Shown here: one piece after another, positions 28,571 to 37,085 of the stretch | Position numbering within the stretch: the stretch's first letter is position 1 | How the letters are laid out: the number at the start of each line of letters is the position of its first letter | Translations under genes and position numbers: made by a program | NCBI GenBank assembly: GCA_937925855.1 | Contig: CALAMO010000064.1 | Span: forward strand, 1-37,085 | DNA from: an uncultured Thiotrichaceae bacterium | GTDB taxonomy: Bacteria; Pseudomonadota; Gammaproteobacteria; Thiotrichales; Thiotrichaceae | Reading direction: 5' to 3' | Length of the DNA stretch: 37,085 nucleotides | The notes under the pieces: generated by a model | What the model saw: the letters and a program-made list of their open reading frames with translations, nothing else | Databases searched by the model: none | What the model was told of the DNA's origin: nothing

Positions 28571-28647
28571 GCACCCTTAGCTCAGCTGGATAGAGCGTCG
28601 CCCTCCGGAGGCGAAGGTCAGAGGTTCGAATCCTCTAGGGTGCGCCA
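28571..28647 (+). tRNA. tRNA-Arg (anticodon CCG)
   Basis: A complete 77-base cloverleaf including encoded CCA. Acceptor GCACCCT pairs with AGGGTGC; the D arm is GCTC/GAGC. The anticodon stem TCGCC/GGCGA encloses loop CTCCGGA with anticodon CCG (reads CGG, arginine). The T arm AGAGG/CCTCT encloses TTCGAAT. tRNA-Arg genes are common island attachment sites, and a restriction-modification island follows. No second copy of its 3' end and no integrase were found in the window. Confidence 0.97.
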
Positions 28648-28855: not shown

Positions 28856-30436
28856 ATGTCAGAAGAACAAAAGCGTATTCTGCAACAGCAGCTATGGAAT
28901 ATTGCGAATACCCTGCGCGGTAAAATGAATGCGGATGAGTTCCGCGATTATATTCTGGGCTTTATTTTCTATAAGTACCTGTCTGAAAAAATGCACCTGT
29001 ATGCCAATGACTTAATGTCGGAGGATGGTATCGACTACACCACCTTGAATGAAAGCGATGCTGATGATGCGGCGATGATTGCTGAAATTGCGGGTGAGGC
29101 GGTTAAAAAACTCGGTTTTACGCTCAAGCCTGCTGAACTCTTCAGCAGCGTGGCGCAGCGGGGTCAGGTTGATGCAGCGGGGGATGCGGCGCTAGATCAT
29201 TTTATTCTGGATGATCTAGGGCGGATTCTGCGTAATATTGAACGCTCGACGATGGGCACCGATAGTGAGGATGATTTTAATCAGCTGTTTGAAGACCTGG
29301 ATCTGACTTCCAGTAAATTAGGCAAGACGGAAGCCCAGAAGAATGAGCTGGTGGCGCGGGTGCTGAGCCATTTGGATGCGATTGATTTCCGTTTGGGTGA
29401 GACCGATGCGGATGTGTTGGGTGATGCTTATGAATACCTGATTGGTGAATTTGCCAGCGGTGCGGGGAAGAAGGCCGGTGAATTTTACACGCCGCAAACG
29501 GTATCGACGATACTGGCGCAGTTGGTGACGGCGGATAAAACCATTCTGAAGTCGGTTTATGATCCGACCTGTGGTTCGGGTTCGCTGTTGTTACGGGTGG
29601 CGAAGGAGGTGCAGGAAGTCGCGCATTTCTACGGACAGGAATTGAACCGCACCACCTATAACTTAGCGCGCATGAATATGATTCTGCACGATGTGAATTA
29701 CCGGCGCTTTGATATTGCGCAGGAGGATTCGCTGGAGCGTCCGCAGCATATTGACGCGCGGTTTGAGGCGATTGTGGCTAATCCCCCGTTCTCTGCGCAT
29801 TGGAGTGCGAACCCGCTGTTTTTGACCGATGACCGTTTTTCGCAGTATGGCAAGCTAGCGCCTAAGACGAAGGCGGATTTTGCGTTTGTGCTGCATATGG
29901 TGCATCACCTCGCGGATAACGGCAATATGGCGGTGGTGCTGCCGCATGGGGTGTTGTTTCGGGGCGCGGCTGAGGGGCATATTCGGAAGCATTTAATTGC
30001 TGAGCGTAATATTCTGGATGCGGTGATTGGTTTACCGGCGAATATCTTTTATGGGACGAGTATCCCGACGTGTATCCTGGTGTTTAAGAAGTGTCGGACG
30101 CGCCCGGATAAGGTGTTGTTTATTGATGCGAGCCAGGGGTTTTCTAAAGAGAAAAATCAGAATGTGTTGCTGCCGGAGCATATCAGTAAGATTATTGGGA
30201 CGTATAAGCATTGGATTTCACAGGATAAATACAGTGCGGTGGTGCCGCTTAGTGAGATTCGGGAGAATGATTATAATCTGAATATTCCGCGTTATGTGGA
30301 TACCTTCGAGGAGGAGGAGCCGGTTGATTTGGCGGCGGTGGTGGCTGATTTGAAGGCGCTTGAGGGGGAGATGATTGAGACGGATAAGGCGATAGCGGGG
30401 TTTTGTGAGGAGTTGGGTATTGGGAGGCCGTTTTGA
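28856..30436 (+). CDS. hsdM: Type I restriction-modification system, DNA methyltransferase subunit
   Basis: The 526-residue N6-adenine methyltransferase has an HsdM N-terminal helical domain (LWNIANTLRGKMNADEFRDYIL) and the GEFYTPQTVS motif before the SAM fold. SAM motif I is DPTCGSGSLLLRV (~240-252), and the catalytic motif IV is NPPFS (~304-308). It modifies the target site with HsdS and forms the core of the HsdR2M2S1 restriction complex. hsdS starts within its stop codon (TGATG). The gene is the first of the three and lies 200 bases after a tRNA. Confidence 0.95.
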   Translation: MSEEQKRILQQQLWNIANTLRGKMNADEFRDYILGFIFYKYLSEKMHLYANDLMSEDGIDYTTLNESDADDAAMIAEIAGEAVKKLGFTLKPAELFSSVAQRGQVDAAGDAALDHFILDDLGRILRNIERSTMGTDSEDDFNQLFEDLDLTSSKLGKTEAQKNELVARVLSHLDAIDFRLGETDADVLGDAYEYLIGEFASGAGKKAGEFYTPQTVSTILAQLVTADKTILKSVYDPTCGSGSLLLRVAKEVQEVAHFYGQELNRTTYNLARMNMILHDVNYRRFDIAQEDSLERPQHIDARFEAIVANPPFSAHWSANPLFLTDDRFSQYGKLAPKTKADFAFVLHMVHHLADNGNMAVVLPHGVLFRGAAEGHIRKHLIAERNILDAVIGLPANIFYGTSIPTCILVFKKCRTRPDKVLFIDASQGFSKEKNQNVLLPEHISKIIGTYKHWISQDKYSAVVPLSEIRENDYNLNIPRYVDTFEEEEPVDLAAVVADLKALEGEMIETDKAIAGFCEELGIGRPF

Positions 30437-31674
30437 TGGCGAATGTGCCGGTTTTGCGGTTTCCGGGGTTTAATACTCCATGGAATAACATTCGTCTATT
30501 TGATGTATGCAAAGTTATCACTAAGGGAACAACTCCTGGCTCCTTTTCTACAAAAGGGGTCAATTACATTAAGATTGAATGCCTGATTGACAGTGAGTTT
30601 TCAAAAGACAAATGCTTGTCAGTTGAAGAGGAGGTTCACACAGGTATTCTGCGACGGTCTATCTTGCAAGAGTGCGATATTTTGTTTGCTATTGCAGGTG
30701 CTACGGTTGGAAAAATAGGGGTTGTCAAAAAAGAAATTTTGCCTGCCAATACTAATCAAGCTTTTGCGATTATTCGGTTGAAAAATAAAAAAATGCTTTG
30801 GTTTGTGTTTTATACATTACAATCAAAAGCGATCATGATTTACATAAATCAGTGCTTATCGGTCGGTGCCCAGCCTAACCTGAGCCTGAAACAAATGGGG
30901 GATTTCCAATTTTTTACTGGAGCCATTGAAGAACAAAAAAAAATAGCCAATTTCCTCACCACCACGGACACTAAAATCCAGCAACTCCAACAAAAACAAA
31001 CCCTGTTGCAGCAATACAAAAAAGGCGTGATGCAGCAGCTTTTTAGTCAGGCATTGCGGTTTAAGGATGATGATGGGGGGGATTATCCTGATTGGGAGGA
31101 GAGCCAGCTGGGAGATATTGGTAAAACCTATAATGGTTTAACAGGAAAAACAGCGGTAGACTTTGGTTCAGGAATGCCTTTTGTAACTTATAAGCAAATA
31201 TTTGATAGTACTCAAATAGACTTAAGTAAGTGCTCTTTTGTAGCAATTAGCGAAAATGAAAGGCAAAATAAAGTCAGATCAGGAGATGTGTTTTTTACAA
31301 TTTCTTCTGAAACCCCATCAGAAGTTGGCTACTCATCGGTATTGCTTAATTGTGTTGGAAATGTATATTTGAATTCTTTTTGTTTTGGCTATAGAGTGAA
31401 ATCTAAGGAAAAATTGCTTCCTGAATATGCTCAATACGCATTCATGAGTGATGGTTTTAGAAGAAAAGTCGTTAGGTTGGCACAGGGAAGTACTCGCTAC
31501 AATATGTCGAAAACTGGACTGATGAATTTAAAATTATTTTTGCCCACGAAACTAGAACAACAAAAAATCGCCAACTTCTTCTCTGCCATAGACAAAAAAA
31601 TCACCCAAACCACCCAACAACTCCACCAAGCCCAAGCCTTCAAAAAAGGCCTCCTCCAACAGATGTTCGTTTAA
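30436..31674 (+). CDS. hsdS: Type I restriction-modification system, specificity subunit
   Basis: The 412-residue protein sets the DNA target. There are two target-recognition domains (~1-150 and ~200-350), each followed by a conserved helix: EEQKKIANFLTTTDTKIQQLQQKQTLLQQYKKG (~160-195) and EQQKIANFFSAIDKKITQTTQQLHQAQAFKKG (near the C terminus). The recognition domains are visibly more AT-rich than hsdM or the conserved helices, consistent with domain exchange. The ATG at 30436 shares one base with the hsdM stop. The target sequence cannot be predicted by reading. Confidence 0.93.
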   Translation: MANVPVLRFPGFNTPWNNIRLFDVCKVITKGTTPGSFSTKGVNYIKIECLIDSEFSKDKCLSVEEEVHTGILRRSILQECDILFAIAGATVGKIGVVKKEILPANTNQAFAIIRLKNKKMLWFVFYTLQSKAIMIYINQCLSVGAQPNLSLKQMGDFQFFTGAIEEQKKIANFLTTTDTKIQQLQQKQTLLQQYKKGVMQQLFSQALRFKDDDGGDYPDWEESQLGDIGKTYNGLTGKTAVDFGSGMPFVTYKQIFDSTQIDLSKCSFVAISENERQNKVRSGDVFFTISSETPSEVGYSSVLLNCVGNVYLNSFCFGYRVKSKEKLLPEYAQYAFMSDGFRRKVVRLAQGSTRYNMSKTGLMNLKLFLPTKLEQQKIANFFSAIDKKITQTTQQLHQAQAFKKGLLQQMFV

Positions 31675-31676
31675 TC

Positions 31677-34583
31677 ATGTGCTCAGTCGAATCAGAACAG
31701 CAACTCGAAGATAAACTCATCCAGCAGCTCCAAACCCTGGGCTACGAATACGTCGAAATCCCCGATGAAGCCGCATTGCTGGCTAACCTGAAAACCCAAC
31801 TCGAACACCACAATGACATCACGCTAAGCGCCAACGAATTTCAGCAAGTACTCAACCACCTCAACAAAGGCAATGTCTTCGATAAGGCGCAAACCCTGCG
31901 CGATAAAATGGCTTTACGCCGCGAGGCGGTACAAGAATTACCAGCACGCTACCAGCTTCAACCCGCCGCCGTCGCACGGGACAGCGGTGACATTGAATAC
32001 CTCGATTTTATCGACCAGATCGAGTGGTGCCAAAACCGCTACCAAGTCACCAGCCAAGTCACCCTGGAAGGCGAGTATGAAAACCGCTATGACGTCACCC
32101 TGCTGATTAATGGCCTACCGCTGGTGCAAATTGAACTCAAGCGCCGGGGCGTGGAGTTAAAGAAAGCCTTCAACCAAACCAACCGGTATCAGCGCCATTC
32201 CTACGGCGCGGGCGCAGGCCTGTTCCAATATATCCAGCTATTCGTGATCAGCAATGGCGTGAACACCAAGTACTACGCCAATAACCGCAAGCAGTCGTTT
32301 AAGTTCACCTTCTTCTGGGCGGATAAGCAGAATAACCTGATCACACCGCTGGAAGATTTTTCCAAGGCTTTCCTGGAAAAATGCCACCTATCAAAGATGA
32401 TCACCCAGTACATAGTGCTGAAGCAAACCGACAAGGTGCTGATGGTGCTGCGTCCGTATCAGTATTATGCGGTTGAAGCCATTATCGACAAGGTGAAAAA
32501 CAGCACGCACAACGGCTATATCTGGCACACTACCGGCTCTGGTAAAACCCTGACCTCATTCAAAGCCGCACAGATACTGGTCAACCTGCCCAAAATTCAT
32601 AAAGTGGTGTTTGTGGTCGATCGTAAAGACTTGGACGACCAGACCAGCCGCGAATTTAATGCCTTCAAAAAAGACAGCGTGGATGGCACCGATAATACCC
32701 GGCAGTTAGTCACCCAAATGACGGCGAATACCGATAGCCCGCTAGTAGTGACCACGATCCAGAAACTCAATAACGCCATTAGCCGGGAGCGTTACAAGCA
32801 ATCGATGGCGGCACTGCGGGATAAGCGCATGGTGTTTATCTTCGATGAATGTCACCGCAGCCAGTTCGGTCAAACCCATAAAAGCATCACTGAATTTTTC
32901 AACAACGTACAGCTGTTTGGCTTTACCGGTACGCCTATCCTAGAGAAAAATGTCGCCAGCAATCAGTTTGGCAGGCGCACCACGAAAGATTTGTTTGGCG
33001 AGCGCCTGCATGATTATGTGATTACCGATGCTATCCGCGATGACAACGTGCTCAAATTCTCCGTGGAGTATGTCGGGCGTTATAAGGATAAAAAAGACAG
33101 CGGGACTTACCGTGATATTGAGGTCGAGGGTATCAATACCCAAGAGCTGATGGAATCGGATAAGCGTCTCCAGCCTATTGTGCAATACATCCTCGATCAT
33201 CATGACAGGAAGACACACAACCGCGACTTCACTGCGATGTTCTGTGTCAGCAGTGTCGATATGCTCTATCGCTATTATGAGCTATTCAAGGCCGCGCAGG
33301 CGGATAGGGAAAGGCCGCTACGCATCGCGACGATATTCAGCTATACCGCGAATGAAGACGATAAGGCGGCCAACGACGATTACACCGATAGCGACCCGCT
33401 CAAGGACGACGGTACGGTCAACCTGCACAGCCGCGATAAGTTGGATGCCTGCATCGCTGATTACAACACGCTATTTGGCACCAGTTATTCCACCAAAGAC
33501 AGCCCGTCGTTTTACAACTATTACCGCAATATTGCTAAGCGGGTGAAGGATGGTGAGGTTGATATTCTGTTGGTGGTGAATATGTTCCTGACCGGTTTTG
33601 ATAGTCCACGCCTGAATACGCTCTATGTGGACAAGAACCTCAAGTACCACGGGCTGATCCAGGCGTTTTCCCGCACCAATCGCCTGAGGGGTGACGTAAA
33701 ATCACAGGGCAATATTGTCTGTTTTCGTAACCTCAAAGACGCGACGGACGAAGCGATTACCTTATTCGCCAATAAAGAGGCGAAAGAGACGATCCTGTTG
33801 GAGCCTTATGAACATTATATCGATCAATTCCGCGAGGCGCTCAGGACCCTAAAGTCGATTGCCCCAACGGTCGGGAGTGTGCACGAACTGCCGGATGAAA
33901 AGGCGCAGCTGGCTTTTATCAAAGCTTTCCGGCAGGTGATGCGCCTGCGAAACGTGTTGGAAAGCTTCACTGATTTTAAGATTGAGGATACCGGGCTGGA
34001 TGAGCAGGAATTTGTTGATTACCGGACGCAGTACCTTGACCTGCATGACAAGGTAAAAACGGATACCCAGAAAGAAAAAGTCTCGATCCTCAATGACGTG
34101 GATTTTGAGCTGGATTTGATCCATCGTGATGAGATCAATGTGGCCTATATCCTGCAATTATTGGGCAAGCTCAAAGACGAAAAAGACAGTGGTGAGCAGC
34201 AGCGCCAGCGCAAGGCCATCCTTGATATGGTAGCGGGTGATGCCAAACTACGCAGCAAGCGTGATCTGATTGAACGCTTCATTAACGACAATCTGCCGAA
34301 TATCCCTAACTCCGCTGCGATACCCGAGCACTTCAGCGCCTTCTGGAAGGAGAACTACACGGCAGCCTTACAGGCCATCTGCGACGACGAGCAGCTTGAC
34401 CCCGATAAGGTAAAGGACATGATCCAGCGGCACCTGTTCACCCAGCGTGAGCCGCTACGGGATGATGCGATCGATGCGCTGAAGTTTAAGCCAAAACTGA
34501 TGCAGCGCAAGCAGATCGGGCAGCGGGTGCTGGATAAGATTATGGGGTTTGTGCGGACGTTTATTCATGATGCGCCGGAGTGA
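31677..34583 (+). CDS. hsdR: Type I restriction-modification system, restriction/translocase subunit
   Basis: The 968-residue motor-nuclease has an N-terminal PD-(D/E)xK nuclease core (YDVTLLINGLPLVQIELKRRG, ~140-160). The SF2 helicase follows: Walker A HTTGSGKTLTSFKA (~284), DECHRSQFG (~390), FGFTGTPI and a late motif VVNMFLTGFDSPRLNTLYVDK with AFSRTNR. A C-terminal helical part contacts the methyltransferase. It translocates DNA and cuts far from unmodified sites. The start is three bases after the hsdS stop. All key residues are present, so the system looks active. Confidence 0.95.
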   Translation: MCSVESEQQLEDKLIQQLQTLGYEYVEIPDEAALLANLKTQLEHHNDITLSANEFQQVLNHLNKGNVFDKAQTLRDKMALRREAVQELPARYQLQPAAVARDSGDIEYLDFIDQIEWCQNRYQVTSQVTLEGEYENRYDVTLLINGLPLVQIELKRRGVELKKAFNQTNRYQRHSYGAGAGLFQYIQLFVISNGVNTKYYANNRKQSFKFTFFWADKQNNLITPLEDFSKAFLEKCHLSKMITQYIVLKQTDKVLMVLRPYQYYAVEAIIDKVKNSTHNGYIWHTTGSGKTLTSFKAAQILVNLPKIHKVVFVVDRKDLDDQTSREFNAFKKDSVDGTDNTRQLVTQMTANTDSPLVVTTIQKLNNAISRERYKQSMAALRDKRMVFIFDECHRSQFGQTHKSITEFFNNVQLFGFTGTPILEKNVASNQFGRRTTKDLFGERLHDYVITDAIRDDNVLKFSVEYVGRYKDKKDSGTYRDIEVEGINTQELMESDKRLQPIVQYILDHHDRKTHNRDFTAMFCVSSVDMLYRYYELFKAAQADRERPLRIATIFSYTANEDDKAANDDYTDSDPLKDDGTVNLHSRDKLDACIADYNTLFGTSYSTKDSPSFYNYYRNIAKRVKDGEVDILLVVNMFLTGFDSPRLNTLYVDKNLKYHGLIQAFSRTNRLRGDVKSQGNIVCFRNLKDATDEAITLFANKEAKETILLEPYEHYIDQFREALRTLKSIAPTVGSVHELPDEKAQLAFIKAFRQVMRLRNVLESFTDFKIEDTGLDEQEFVDYRTQYLDLHDKVKTDTQKEKVSILNDVDFELDLIHRDEINVAYILQLLGKLKDEKDSGEQQRQRKAILDMVAGDAKLRSKRDLIERFINDNLPNIPNSAAIPEHFSAFWKENYTAALQAICDDEQLDPDKVKDMIQRHLFTQREPLRDDAIDALKFKPKLMQRKQIGQRVLDKIMGFVRTFIHDAPE

Positions 34584-34590
34584 TGCGGGG

Positions 34591-35091
34591 ATGTATTGGC
34601 TTAAGCTAAGTTATCAGTTTATTAAAAAGTATTGGATTATTTTTTTTGGAGTTATTCCGGTAATTAGCGCTTCAATACTTTGGGGTTCCATTGTTTTTAA
34701 TAATATAACCACAGGTATGAAAAATCTTCATGATATGGACAAAGATAAAAATACTAGCTCCTCTCCGACCCAAGGTCAGGGATTGCATGAAGAGTGTGAT
34801 GCAGTTGTAGAAGTTACAGTGAAATTCTTAGATAAAATTTCAGATGATTTGCCTGGTTTAAAAATTTTGGGCAAAAACAAAGAAGGAGAGCGTTGTTTTG
34901 AGATGCAGGGGGCAAAGCTTGACTATGTTAATGTTTATAAAAGAAAATTTTTCTATGATAGAGAAAAGTGCTTTTCTGAGGAAGGTAAAGAAGTTGAGTT
35001 TTTCTTGGAAACGACTGGCCGTGAATATAATATTGAAGATGGGGCTGGGTTTACGAATGCCTGCAAAAGCTTTGAGATAACAATTGAATGA
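34591..35091 (+). CDS. Unknown membrane-anchored protein with four cysteines (island gene)
   Basis: I do not recognise this 166-residue protein. It has one N-terminal membrane helix (IIFFGVIPVISASILWGSIV, ~15-34), a polar linker, and a soluble domain with four cysteines (EECDAV, ERCFEM, EKCFSE, NACKSF) that could form two disulfides, so it is probably periplasmic. The start MYWLKL lies seven bases after the hsdR stop; longer starts inside hsdR are possible. The DNA is clearly more AT-rich than hsdR. The next gene overlaps by four bases (ATGA), so the two are made together. Confidence 0.65.
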   Translation: MYWLKLSYQFIKKYWIIFFGVIPVISASILWGSIVFNNITTGMKNLHDMDKDKNTSSSPTQGQGLHEECDAVVEVTVKFLDKISDDLPGLKILGKNKEGERCFEMQGAKLDYVNVYKRKFFYDREKCFSEEGKEVEFFLETTGREYNIEDGAGFTNACKSFEITIE

Positions 35092-35825
35092 GGTTAAATA
35101 TAGGTGTGAGTAATTATATTTTAAGGTTTTTCTATGGTGTGCTTTTATTAGCTTTTCCGATTAATGAAGCGGTTTCAGCTTGTTTCTATGTGCATGTGAA
35201 TATTATAACTTCAACTGGGAAAATGCTTGATCGGCCAAATATTGATCTTTCGATAGAGAACTCTGGTATTATTAAAGGAAGTAAGAAAGATTCAACGGAT
35301 TCTCGGGGTATTGCTTGTATTCCTTACAATGAAGATACAGTAAAGCCTGGTGATGAAGTTAAGTTGCTCCTTGGTGTGCCCGGTAAAGATACAAAAGAAG
35401 GTAGAACCCCTTGGTCAACTTGGAAATTGCTTTCCCCTTATCAGGGTGTTGCTTATCTTCCCAACATAGAAAAAGCCAGAATGCCTTTGGAGATTATTAT
35501 TGCTCCACAGTCAGTGGTGACTTCACTCATGAGCTATCGCAGTGCTGATGAGGGAAGTAAAGTAAAAAATGAAACGTGTGCCAGCAGTGCTAATTCATCT
35601 ATGCTACAGATTATTGCCCTAAAAAATAAAGAAAGAGCTGAATTGCTTGTGAATTCTTTGCGGCAAAATCAAAAATACTCAGCTTGTTTGTCCAGCATTG
35701 TTACAGCAAAAGGTGTGCTTTATAGGGTTCGTGTTGAAATTAAAGAACCTAAAGATCTGCAAGGTATTTGTGTTGATATTAAAAGAAATTACTTGCTTGA
35801 TTCTGATTTCTCGTGTGATGTTTGA
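35088..35825 (+). CDS. Unknown exported protein with SPOR-like C terminus (island gene)
   Basis: The 245-residue protein has a signal peptide (about residues 10-32, ending near AVSA). Residues ~33-105 form a beta-rich region with DSRGIACIPY and KPGDEVKLLLG, reminiscent of Ig-like or carboxypeptidase-regulatory folds. The C terminus (~170-240) looks like a SPOR domain: LQIIALKNKERAELLVNSLRQ then VLYRVRVEIKEPKDLQGICVDIKRN. SPOR domains bind denuded peptidoglycan. The assignment is from pattern only. Base composition is AT-rich like its partner, and it overlaps that gene by four bases. Confidence 0.6.
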   Translation: MRLNIGVSNYILRFFYGVLLLAFPINEAVSACFYVHVNIITSTGKMLDRPNIDLSIENSGIIKGSKKDSTDSRGIACIPYNEDTVKPGDEVKLLLGVPGKDTKEGRTPWSTWKLLSPYQGVAYLPNIEKARMPLEIIIAPQSVVTSLMSYRSADEGSKVKNETCASSANSSMLQIIALKNKERAELLVNSLRQNQKYSACLSSIVTAKGVLYRVRVEIKEPKDLQGICVDIKRNYLLDSDFSCDV

Positions 35826-35852
35826 TTGTAGTAAAAGTAACTGAGGTTTTTG

Positions 35853-36860
35853 ATGTTGCAACTGGGGATGCTGAAACAAGTGGATTTGAGGGATGTATGG
35901 GAAAATGAAGCCCGTGATTTTACTCCCTGGCTAGCGAAAGAAGCTAATCTTGCGCTATTAGGTGATGTGATCGGCATCGAACTGGAGCTGGAAGCCCAGG
36001 AACAAAGTGTCGGCTCATTCTCAGCAGACTTGCTCTGTAAAGACACCGTAAATGATAACTGGGTAGTCATCGAAAACCAGTTGGAAAAAACCAACCACAC
36101 TCACTTAGGCCAGCTACTGACTTATGCCTCTGGCCTGAAAGCCGTAACCGTAGTTTGGGTGGCGAAAAAATTCACGGATGAGCACCGTGCTACCTTAGAT
36201 TGGCTGAATGAAATCACCAGCGAAAAGTATAACTTCTTTGGGCTTGAAGTAGAGCTATGGCGCATAGGTGATTCTGATGTCGCCCCCAAGTTCAACATTG
36301 CATCGAAGCCCAACGACTGGAGTAAAAAGCTAGTTTCCCGTACTGCACAGAAAGTGGCAAATGAGACGCTTACCGATACGAAAACACTACAATTAGCGTT
36401 CTGGGAAGGCTTTAGTGAATATGTGGCAAACCAAGGCTCATTTATCAGGGCAACAAAACCTTTGCCACAGCATTGGATGAATATTGCACTAGGCAAAAGC
36501 GGCACCAAATTAAGCGCTATTGTCACTGTCTATGATTCAGAAAGTAACAGCTATGATGCACAGGAAATTCGGGCAGAAGTTGTGCTTTATGACCAGGATT
36601 CAAAAAACTATTTTCAAGGTCTTTACCAGCAAAAAGAACAGATTGAGCAGGAAGTAGGTGCAGGGTTGAAATGGCATAACCCAGAAAATACACGATTGTG
36701 CCGCATCTACCTACGCAAGACGGTTAACCTTTCGGATCGGGCAGCATGGAATGAAAAGCATGATTGGATTTTGACAAAACTAGAAAAGCTCCATCAGGTA
36801 TTCTCACCGCGAATTAAAGCCATGAAATTTACTGAGCTAACACATAGTATTGAGGAGTAA
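35853..36860 (+). CDS. DUF4268 protein, PD-(D/E)xK nuclease-like
   Basis: The 335-residue protein has the DUF4268 layout: an N-terminal DVWENEARDFTPWLA, then a restriction-like core with SADLLCKD and VVIENQLEKTNHTHLGQLLTYASG (D and E-x-Q, ~50-90). A DUF4268 C-terminal domain includes FWEGFSEYV and RCRIYLRK-like sequence. Members occur often in restriction and defence islands, and some may act as nucleases or nuclease decoys. The start ATG at 35853 has GAGG at six bases. It follows the exported pair on the same strand, though base composition returns toward the average. Confidence 0.85.
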   Translation: MLQLGMLKQVDLRDVWENEARDFTPWLAKEANLALLGDVIGIELELEAQEQSVGSFSADLLCKDTVNDNWVVIENQLEKTNHTHLGQLLTYASGLKAVTVVWVAKKFTDEHRATLDWLNEITSEKYNFFGLEVELWRIGDSDVAPKFNIASKPNDWSKKLVSRTAQKVANETLTDTKTLQLAFWEGFSEYVANQGSFIRATKPLPQHWMNIALGKSGTKLSAIVTVYDSESNSYDAQEIRAEVVLYDQDSKNYFQGLYQQKEQIEQEVGAGLKWHNPENTRLCRIYLRKTVNLSDRAAWNEKHDWILTKLEKLHQVFSPRIKAMKFTELTHSIEE

Positions 36861-37005
36861 TGCAGCATACGGTAGGTGTAAAACTCCAGACCTGATCTGA
36901 CAGTTTGATTTTCAGTACTTCAGCTACAGCCTTCATCCGTCGAACGCTGCTGGGAAAATGAATGTTGGAGACTGTAAACCCAAGTGTGTATCTGCTCCCT
37001 AATGG
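36861..37005. other. Gene-free stretch ending at a probable IS boundary
   Basis: No gene is supported in this segment. Near its right side, GGAGACTGTAAACCCAAGTG (36967-36986) lies just outside the transposase stop and has the look of an IS256-family terminal inverted repeat, so the element probably ends near 36967. The opposite end lies outside the window, so the repeat cannot be confirmed. Confidence 0.45.
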
Positions 37006-37085
37006 CTACAGATAATTTTGTAGGCGTTCATCGAACTCAATCATAAAGCGGTTGAGCGCTGCTTTCCAGTTACGTATAGGCATCG
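37006..37085 (-). CDS. IS256-family transposase, C-terminal end
   Basis: Only the last 26 codons are in the window: MPIRNWKAALNRFMIEF then DERLQNYL and TAG. The W-x-x-A-L-N-x-F pattern is the usual C terminus of IS256-family (mutator-type) DDE transposases. The catalytic residues and start lie to the right. It closes the restriction-modification island on this side. Confidence 0.65.
   Translation of the reverse strand, partial: MPIRNWKAALNRFMIEFDERLQNYL

Follow-up and report, generated by a model that had tools for sequence, protein, structure and literature searches.

The window analysed in this work is the whole of a 37,085-nt contig from an uncultured Thiotrichaceae bacterium, the last of the 64 contigs (C64) in its genome (G000), and carries restriction genes at its right-hand end. 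A tRNA-Arg (ccg) gene was located with ARAGORN at 28571..28647 on the forward strand, just left of these genes, and may mark the edge of an island. It is followed on the same strand by hsdM, encoding the type I methyltransferase (28856..30436; Pfam N6_Mtase/HsdM_N, with NCBIfam TIGR00497 above cut-off), hsdS, encoding the specificity subunit (30433..31674; Pfam Methylase_S and PADLOC Specificity_I), and hsdR, encoding the restriction subunit (31677..34583; Pfam HSDR_N and EcoR124_C, with NCBIfam TIGR00348 above cut-off). Together, and in this order, the three genes identify a type I restriction-modification system by Pfam, PADLOC and NCBIfam models. Three more forward-strand genes follow. Gene A (34591..35091, 166 aa) starts after a gap of 7 nt from hsdR and overlaps gene B (35088..35825, 245 aa) by 4 nt, and a DUF4268 gene, starting at 35850 (TTG) or 35853 (ATG) and ending at 36860, lies a further 24 or 27 nt downstream.

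The preliminary description of this DNA placed two overlapping AT-rich genes between hsdR and the DUF4268 gene. Both genes are real. Their GC content is 34.3% for A and 37.0% for B, with 38.6% in hsdS, approximately 50% in hsdM and hsdR and 52.9% across positions 1-28000 of the window. A terminator scan of the region 34300-37085 gave no terminator-like site on the forward strand, and promoter-like matches in the same region were at chance level (5 found versus 5.1 expected). Because the contig stops at 37085, any genes beyond the DUF4268 gene are hidden; the contig end lies 225 nt past that gene (36861-37085) and the right edge of the island falls outside the visible sequence.

The DUF4268 gene

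The protein encoded by the last gene matches Pfam DUF4268 with 97.9 bits (cut-off 27) and the PADLOC candidate PDC-S11 with an E value of 1.9e-119. It may be a nuclease; none of the nuclease families reached cut-off for this protein. DUF4268 has been noted alongside the GmrS/GmrD restriction domains in a portion of PMC4619093. The gene had previously been grouped with A and B as one set, and this grouping did not survive comparison with the other genomes that carry an A-B type module (described below). Five of the six other module-bearing family genomes have no DUF4268 match (95 relatives, E 1e-10; G427 not included), and of the three genomes among the 95 that were matched by the DUF4268 protein, only the genome of the window also carries the module. 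Relatives of the DUF4268 protein were present in 60 plasmid records. In the four inspected, the listed annotation is free of type I genes for roughly 8 kb to either side, or for 5.6 kb on a single side of one record. One of these relatives has a restriction endonuclease gene about 2 kb away, with an adjoining methyltransferase gene, in a gene table that is incomplete. A DUF4268 gene in G037 precedes an open frame that resembles, by eye, the opening part of a C5 methyltransferase. On the strength of its absence from the five other module genomes searched and of the plasmid neighbourhoods, DUF4268 was ruled out as a part of the module, and the gene is probably an independent defence gene.

Gene A encodes a membrane-anchored protein with four cysteines

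Protein A consists of approximately 15 residues, a single hydrophobic segment at residues 16-34 and a domain containing exactly four cysteines (69, 102, 127 and 158), all of them C-terminal to the hydrophobic segment. Searches with protein A against Pfam, PADLOC, NCBIfam and PHROGs gave nothing at the limits applied, and PDB sequences gave no match either. The hydrophobic segment, the cysteine positions and the profile scans agree with the earlier account of A as a membrane-anchored four-cysteine protein of no recognised family. Judged from this layout, the domain would be located in the periplasm, where the four cysteines probably form two stabilizing disulfides. A does not qualify as an effector protein of the TIR, SEFIR or CHAT kind, with no corresponding Pfam or PADLOC match and only those 15 or so residues ahead of the membrane segment. 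Homologues of A were sought in viral contigs, plasmids and the 95 relatives, as distinct from the genome_contigs, phage, class and phylum samples used for B. No close homologue was present in the plasmids or in a pattern-limited scan of the viral contigs, and the 95 relatives gave a single weak match carrying five stops. Single-sequence structure models of A and B had mean pLDDT values of 62 and 47, respectively, and were judged too poor for fold searches.

Gene B encodes a putative exported protein with a SPOR domain

Protein B possesses a hydrophobic export-type N-terminus (residues 5-23), six cysteines, a beta-rich leading domain and a SPOR domain (Pfam PF05036; residues 172-232, nucleotides 35601..35783 on the forward strand). 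The SPOR match scores 23.4 bits against a Pfam cut-off of 21, and together with the export-type N-terminus it agrees with the earlier proposal of an exported protein with a possible SPOR domain. The leading domain resembles CarboxypepD-reg in relatives of B. Pfam makes no CarboxypepD assignment for the B protein of the window, and such matches were below cut-off in all scanned proteins except one, from G028, which was at cut-off.

When a four-row profile was compared with solved structures, the nearest was 1x60 (a CwlC-type SPOR domain, E 0.006, the entry being named as a sporulation-specific amidase), followed by the SPOR domain of RlpA (E 0.35 to 0.51). In the RlpA domain, residues Q270, R302, R309 and R311 touch denuded glycan, as set out in a part of PMC6895207. 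Residues Q174, R213 and R215 of B align with Q270, R309 and R311 of RlpA, R302 falling outside the comparison, and B therefore has both the glutamine and the basic residues expected for glycan contact. Across the six SPOR-type members of the B family, the position of Q270 is occupied by Gln in all six and that of R309 by Arg or Lys in five, while Arg at the position of R311 is found in the B protein of the window only. Four DedD proteins aligned alongside have the Gln and both Arg, and because of this the contact residues are no marker of a defence role. Wall binding by B is plausible from these residues. The protein would be secreted to the periplasm and bind peptidoglycan strands stripped of their peptides.

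Most rows returned by SPOR profile searches covered the SPOR part alone. Six such matches were inspected, of which five (L002, L004, L007, L016 and L049) were rejected as DedD by gene order and one (L050) as the end part of a TolC-like protein; coverage alone was the reason for excluding the other SPOR-only rows. The first SPOR-only matches to B were DedD genes in the order folC-dedD-cvpA-purF. This raises the possibility, which we consider doubtful, that A and B are an envelope pair for division or wall maintenance, similar to DedD or FtsN, carried into the island as passengers with no defence role. SPOR domains are normally used by septal wall proteins, according to part of PMC6895207, and the window's SPOR domain and DedD have both Arg where the other module members are mostly without them. 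AT-rich DNA beside a tRNA gene also fits a recent arrival. Against the passenger explanation, B carries an additional leading domain that is absent from DedD.

Relatives of gene B share the leading domain

No close homologue of B was found in plasmids, in 50,697 phage records or in pattern-limited scans of viral contigs and genome_contigs. A weak first match (E 0.004) came from G011, a genome belonging to the same family, in a protein with the same layout (27% pairwise identity to B over 186 columns, E 6e-9). Stepwise profiles added proteins from G033 (E 1.3e-7), from a second contig of the window's own genome (G000:C32, E 3.3e-13), from G016 (E 5.7e-31) and from G427 (E 6.4e-27), each of which was outside the profile at the moment of its detection. 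In total, eight further proteins with the leading domain of B were identified, five with a SPOR domain, two with TPR repeats and one interrupted. The SPOR domain exceeds the Pfam cut-off in all six SPOR-type members, B included. In G028 and G027, the leading domain is joined to TPR repeats in place of SPOR. The interrupted frame is that of G232, a genome outside the family, in which the leading domain common to B is followed by TPR repeats recognised by eye only, nothing in it being significant in Pfam.

A leading-domain profile built from all nine proteins, B itself included, matched 7 of 63 family genomes (8 loci, E up to 0.001), 3 of 369 class genomes (the window's own, G011 and G232, at E up to 1e-4) and, among 398 phylum genomes, the window's own genome only; the three samples overlap. 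The module is rare, occurring in those 7 of 63 family genomes and, across the wider samples, in a single additional genome, and the leading domain is rare outside the family of the host at the sensitivity used.

Membrane partners are encoded upstream of B-type genes

In seven of the nine loci, the gene immediately preceding the B-type gene encodes a membrane protein. The two-gene arrangement, consisting of an exported-type protein with the common leading domain and SPOR or TPR repeats preceded directly by a membrane-anchored partner, is present in the window as B and A. Distances from the stop of the partner to the start of B are -4 (window), 6, 7, 15, -4 (G427), 3 and 253 nt (G027). Two partners are TIR-anchored (G000:C32 and G028), with a TIR domain, a membrane helix and an outer domain in that order (TIR_2, E 2.7e-20 and 1.8e-16). 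The G033 partner has the same arrangement with a SEFIR domain (Pfam SEFIR, E 1.4e-17) and that of G027 with a CHAT domain (E 4.6e-7). The remaining three, those of the window, G016 and G427, are effector-less. The G016 partner, an open frame, has a pair of membrane helices plus an outer domain and matches no effector, and that of G427, by reading only, is a membrane segment, with four cysteines after it, and a small outer domain, spread over two overlapping frames. Of the two loci outside this count, G232 is cut by the contig end and G011 is partnerless, since its next upstream gene, 46 nt away, encodes a hydrolase. The G011 gene is a solo B among housekeeping genes, an arrangement that suits the passenger explanation given above; the TIR, SEFIR or CHAT domains on partners elsewhere are at odds with it.

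Within the window's own genome, the G000:C32 locus (L047:8644-10185) is a second copy of the module, in which a protein of TIR-helix-CarboxypepD-like layout accompanies an exported SPOR protein. At L083:405-4260 and L082:6299-9202, CHAT- or TIR-membrane proteins are encoded together with CarboxypepD-like TPR proteins bearing an export-type N-terminus. These pairs represent a variant form of the module with TPR repeats.

The outer domains of the partners from G000:C32, G033, G028 and G027 match CarboxypepD-regulatory models, below cut-off except for G028, which is at cut-off. Among the five other partners compared by shuffle test (300 shuffles), only 4 of the 10 pairs of outer domains were clearly related. 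When the domain of A was compared with the outer domains of the six other partners, 19% to 90% of 1000 shuffles scored equally or better, and hhalign gave a probability of 0.3%, with 20 of 100 shuffles as high-scoring. A CarboxypepD-type domain in A, suggested by eye, was unsupported in the shuffle tests. A relationship to the G427 partner was likewise unsupported; both proteins contain four cysteines, with gaps of 33, 25 and 31 in A versus 33, 24 and 16 in the G427 partner, and their similarity was not significant. Sequence comparison thus gives no relationship of A to the domains of the TIR, SEFIR and CHAT partners. As it is by shuffle test related to none of the six partners, A is a positional and topological equivalent of them and not a demonstrated homologue.

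This equivalence could mean that A is a TIR- or SEFIR-anchored partner degraded to the loss of its effector, which would make the pair in the window a relic without function. A shares position and topology with those partners and has no effector, and the similar G427 partner, lying in two overlapping frames, may itself be broken. We regard a relic as very unlikely, given that both frames of the window are open, that the window and G427 alike have the 4-nt overlap with B, that the effector-less partner of G016 is also an open frame, and that the domain of A is not visibly the same as that of the TIR and SEFIR partners.

Genomic contexts of the module

In G033, another type I system contains the SEFIR pair between its hsdS and hsdR genes, in opposite orientation. 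A transposase-like gene, which we take to be IS66, is located within the hsdS region, and small overlapping open frames with no Pfam match, presumably resembling a C-terminal fragment of DarG, lie beside hsdS (L017:8891-9419). The pair of G016 starts 522 nt after mad8, the last gene of a MADS operon matching mad2, mad5, mad6, mad7 and mad8, in which the methyltransferase is scored higher by a type II model than by mad2. Genes for capP-like and SMODS proteins lie upstream. Directly after the G016 pair, a second membrane protein (L080:7858-8331) contains a repeated 'SPAIN..GDV' motif and has no Pfam match.

The G427 locus (L081:3019-13620) is a chromosomal integron, in which the pair forms one two-gene cassette between attC-like repeats, the repeat after the pair overlapping the end of the B frame. 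The integrase scores 437.9 bits with TIGR02249 (cut-off 265), and the cassettes include Abi_alpha (5e-31), beta-lactamase-family and GFA genes. The assignment as attC-like is based on tandem repeats at cassette spacing and on the integrase; the folding of two of these repeats was no better than that of shuffles. The integron copy suggests that a pair of the A-B type can travel together without a third gene. At G000:C32, the matches of a MoxR-type ATPase and of an S8 peptidase to defence families all stayed below cut-off.

Recognised defence neighbours are present at four of the nine loci, or at three of eight if the window, whose choice was not blind, is left out; the neighbours of the other five loci, two of which are short contigs, were judged by eye from ORF lists. 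At three more the partner bears TIR or CHAT, and two have neither, one of these two being cut by the contig end. These loci do not show homologues to lie mostly outside defence islands, the outcome named beforehand as a refutation, although such a distribution is still conceivable. Relatives of B did turn up in the co-occurrence check next to genes for restriction, MADS or abortive infection, or with TIR, SEFIR or CHAT membrane proteins. HSDR_N genes are frequent in the 7 family genomes, with 31 rows, or approximately 30 genes, in 27.5 Mb. The chance of lying within 5 kb of an HSDR_N gene is about 1.1% per locus, giving a probability of 0.003 for the two of eight loci observed but 0.07 for one of seven without the window. 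That the two genes recur together, next to restriction, MADS and integron genes, is a further point against passengers of division or wall maintenance. Overall, the preliminary description stands as regards the genes, the SPOR domain and the four-cysteine anchor, is supported by the defence-type neighbours of relatives, and has lost the DUF4268 gene as part of the set.

Co-location with restriction and MADS also bears on a simpler function. Restriction and MADS act on DNA that has already entered, and A and B could complement them by mechanically blocking phage DNA entry, in the manner of superinfection exclusion, without sensing or signalling. The approximately 15 residues that precede the membrane segment of A would fit such a block, as would effector-less partners at three of the seven partnered loci (the window, G016 and G427). 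However, it leaves the TIR, SEFIR and CHAT partners of the same B family unexplained. Exclusion proteins are often prophage-borne, but neither the phage records nor the pattern-limited scan of viral contigs contained a match to B. A purely mechanical block is improbable.

A proposed two-gene envelope module

The sequences establish the architecture of the proteins, the recurrence of the pair, the gene order and the contexts. We tentatively interpret A and B, with a confidence somewhat short of even, as belonging to an undescribed envelope module of two genes that moves as one and is often located in defence islands. They would be its effector-less form, with an exported protein that binds the wall cooperating with a partner in the membrane, and we infer that the pair has a role in defence. 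B would be exported to the periplasm, where its SPOR domain could hold glycan strands stripped by a phage lysin, an entry enzyme or wall damage, while its leading domain would bind the outer domain of the membrane partner. Wall binding by B might then cluster or release the partner, and where the partner carries TIR, SEFIR or CHAT a cytoplasmic effector would be switched on. Because A is without an effector domain, the output in the window would be at the membrane, as a block to DNA entry, a pore or a change in permeability, or A would recruit another protein.

A bolder version, possible though we lean against it, is that the module is a modular trans-envelope immune receptor, in which an exported SPOR or TPR protein reads peptidoglycan damage and docks on a membrane partner with an exchangeable cytoplasmic end (TIR, SEFIR, CHAT or nothing). 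If so, the effector-less form within the type I operon of the window would link restriction of DNA with sensing at the wall. The two-gene module, if correctly interpreted, would account for envelope proteins within a restriction operon and would represent receptor-like detection of attack at the envelope, with a layout loosely similar to that of animal Toll receptors. It is a small, portable unit of two genes, one copy being an integron cassette, and is directly testable.

Comparison with known systems

Such an envelope pair is undescribed among the titles and abstract beginnings of the matches listed in the open-access literature. No open-access paper contains both 'SPOR domain' and 'TIR domain', which is no proof of novelty, and none combines any two of 'SPOR domain', SEFIR and 'carboxypeptidase regulatory'. 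In two comparative studies of conflict systems (PMC8195603 and PMC7159879), 'carboxypeptidase' does not occur and 'spor' occurs only within words such as sporadic. The parts are known, and their combination appears undescribed in the open-access literature, including these studies and passages of PMC10907252. The membrane-associated EACC1 conflict system (System 4) likewise comprises two genes, the first encoding a protein with a single membrane helix, but is described with a variable many-domain region, in a text that has neither 'carboxypeptidase' nor a mention of SPOR (PMC7159879).

B shares its kind of wall-binding domain with the SPOR proteins of division, DedD, FtsN, DamX and RlpA. In contrast to these, B has a leading domain, an upstream membrane partner and an island context, and lies outside the folC-dedD-cvpA-purF cluster. 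The bacterial immune sensors known so far mostly respond to phage within the cell, Zorya being an exception. Zorya is a membrane-embedded defence complex with a periplasmic domain that binds peptidoglycan and is important for function, as stated in part of PMC11890865, and it resembles the proposed module in having a wall-binding part within a membrane defence assembly. However, Zorya works as a motor driven by ions and has its effector, for example the ZorE nickase, as a separate component, whereas the wall-binding part of the module would be a separate exported protein, and no motor gene was seen. PADLOC gave no ZorA or ZorB match among the six island proteins (within the best 25 of 121 rows for hsdS and the best 25 of 60 for hsdM).

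Among catalogued systems, bSEFIR (PADLOC PDLC03957) has a model that matches the G033 partner over residues 2-263 (E 1.7e-50). The A protein of the window differs in being without a SEFIR domain. Whereas bSEFIR is a single-gene anti-phage protein, the G033 partner adds a membrane helix and a CarboxypepD-reg-like outer domain, and an exported SPOR protein accompanies it.
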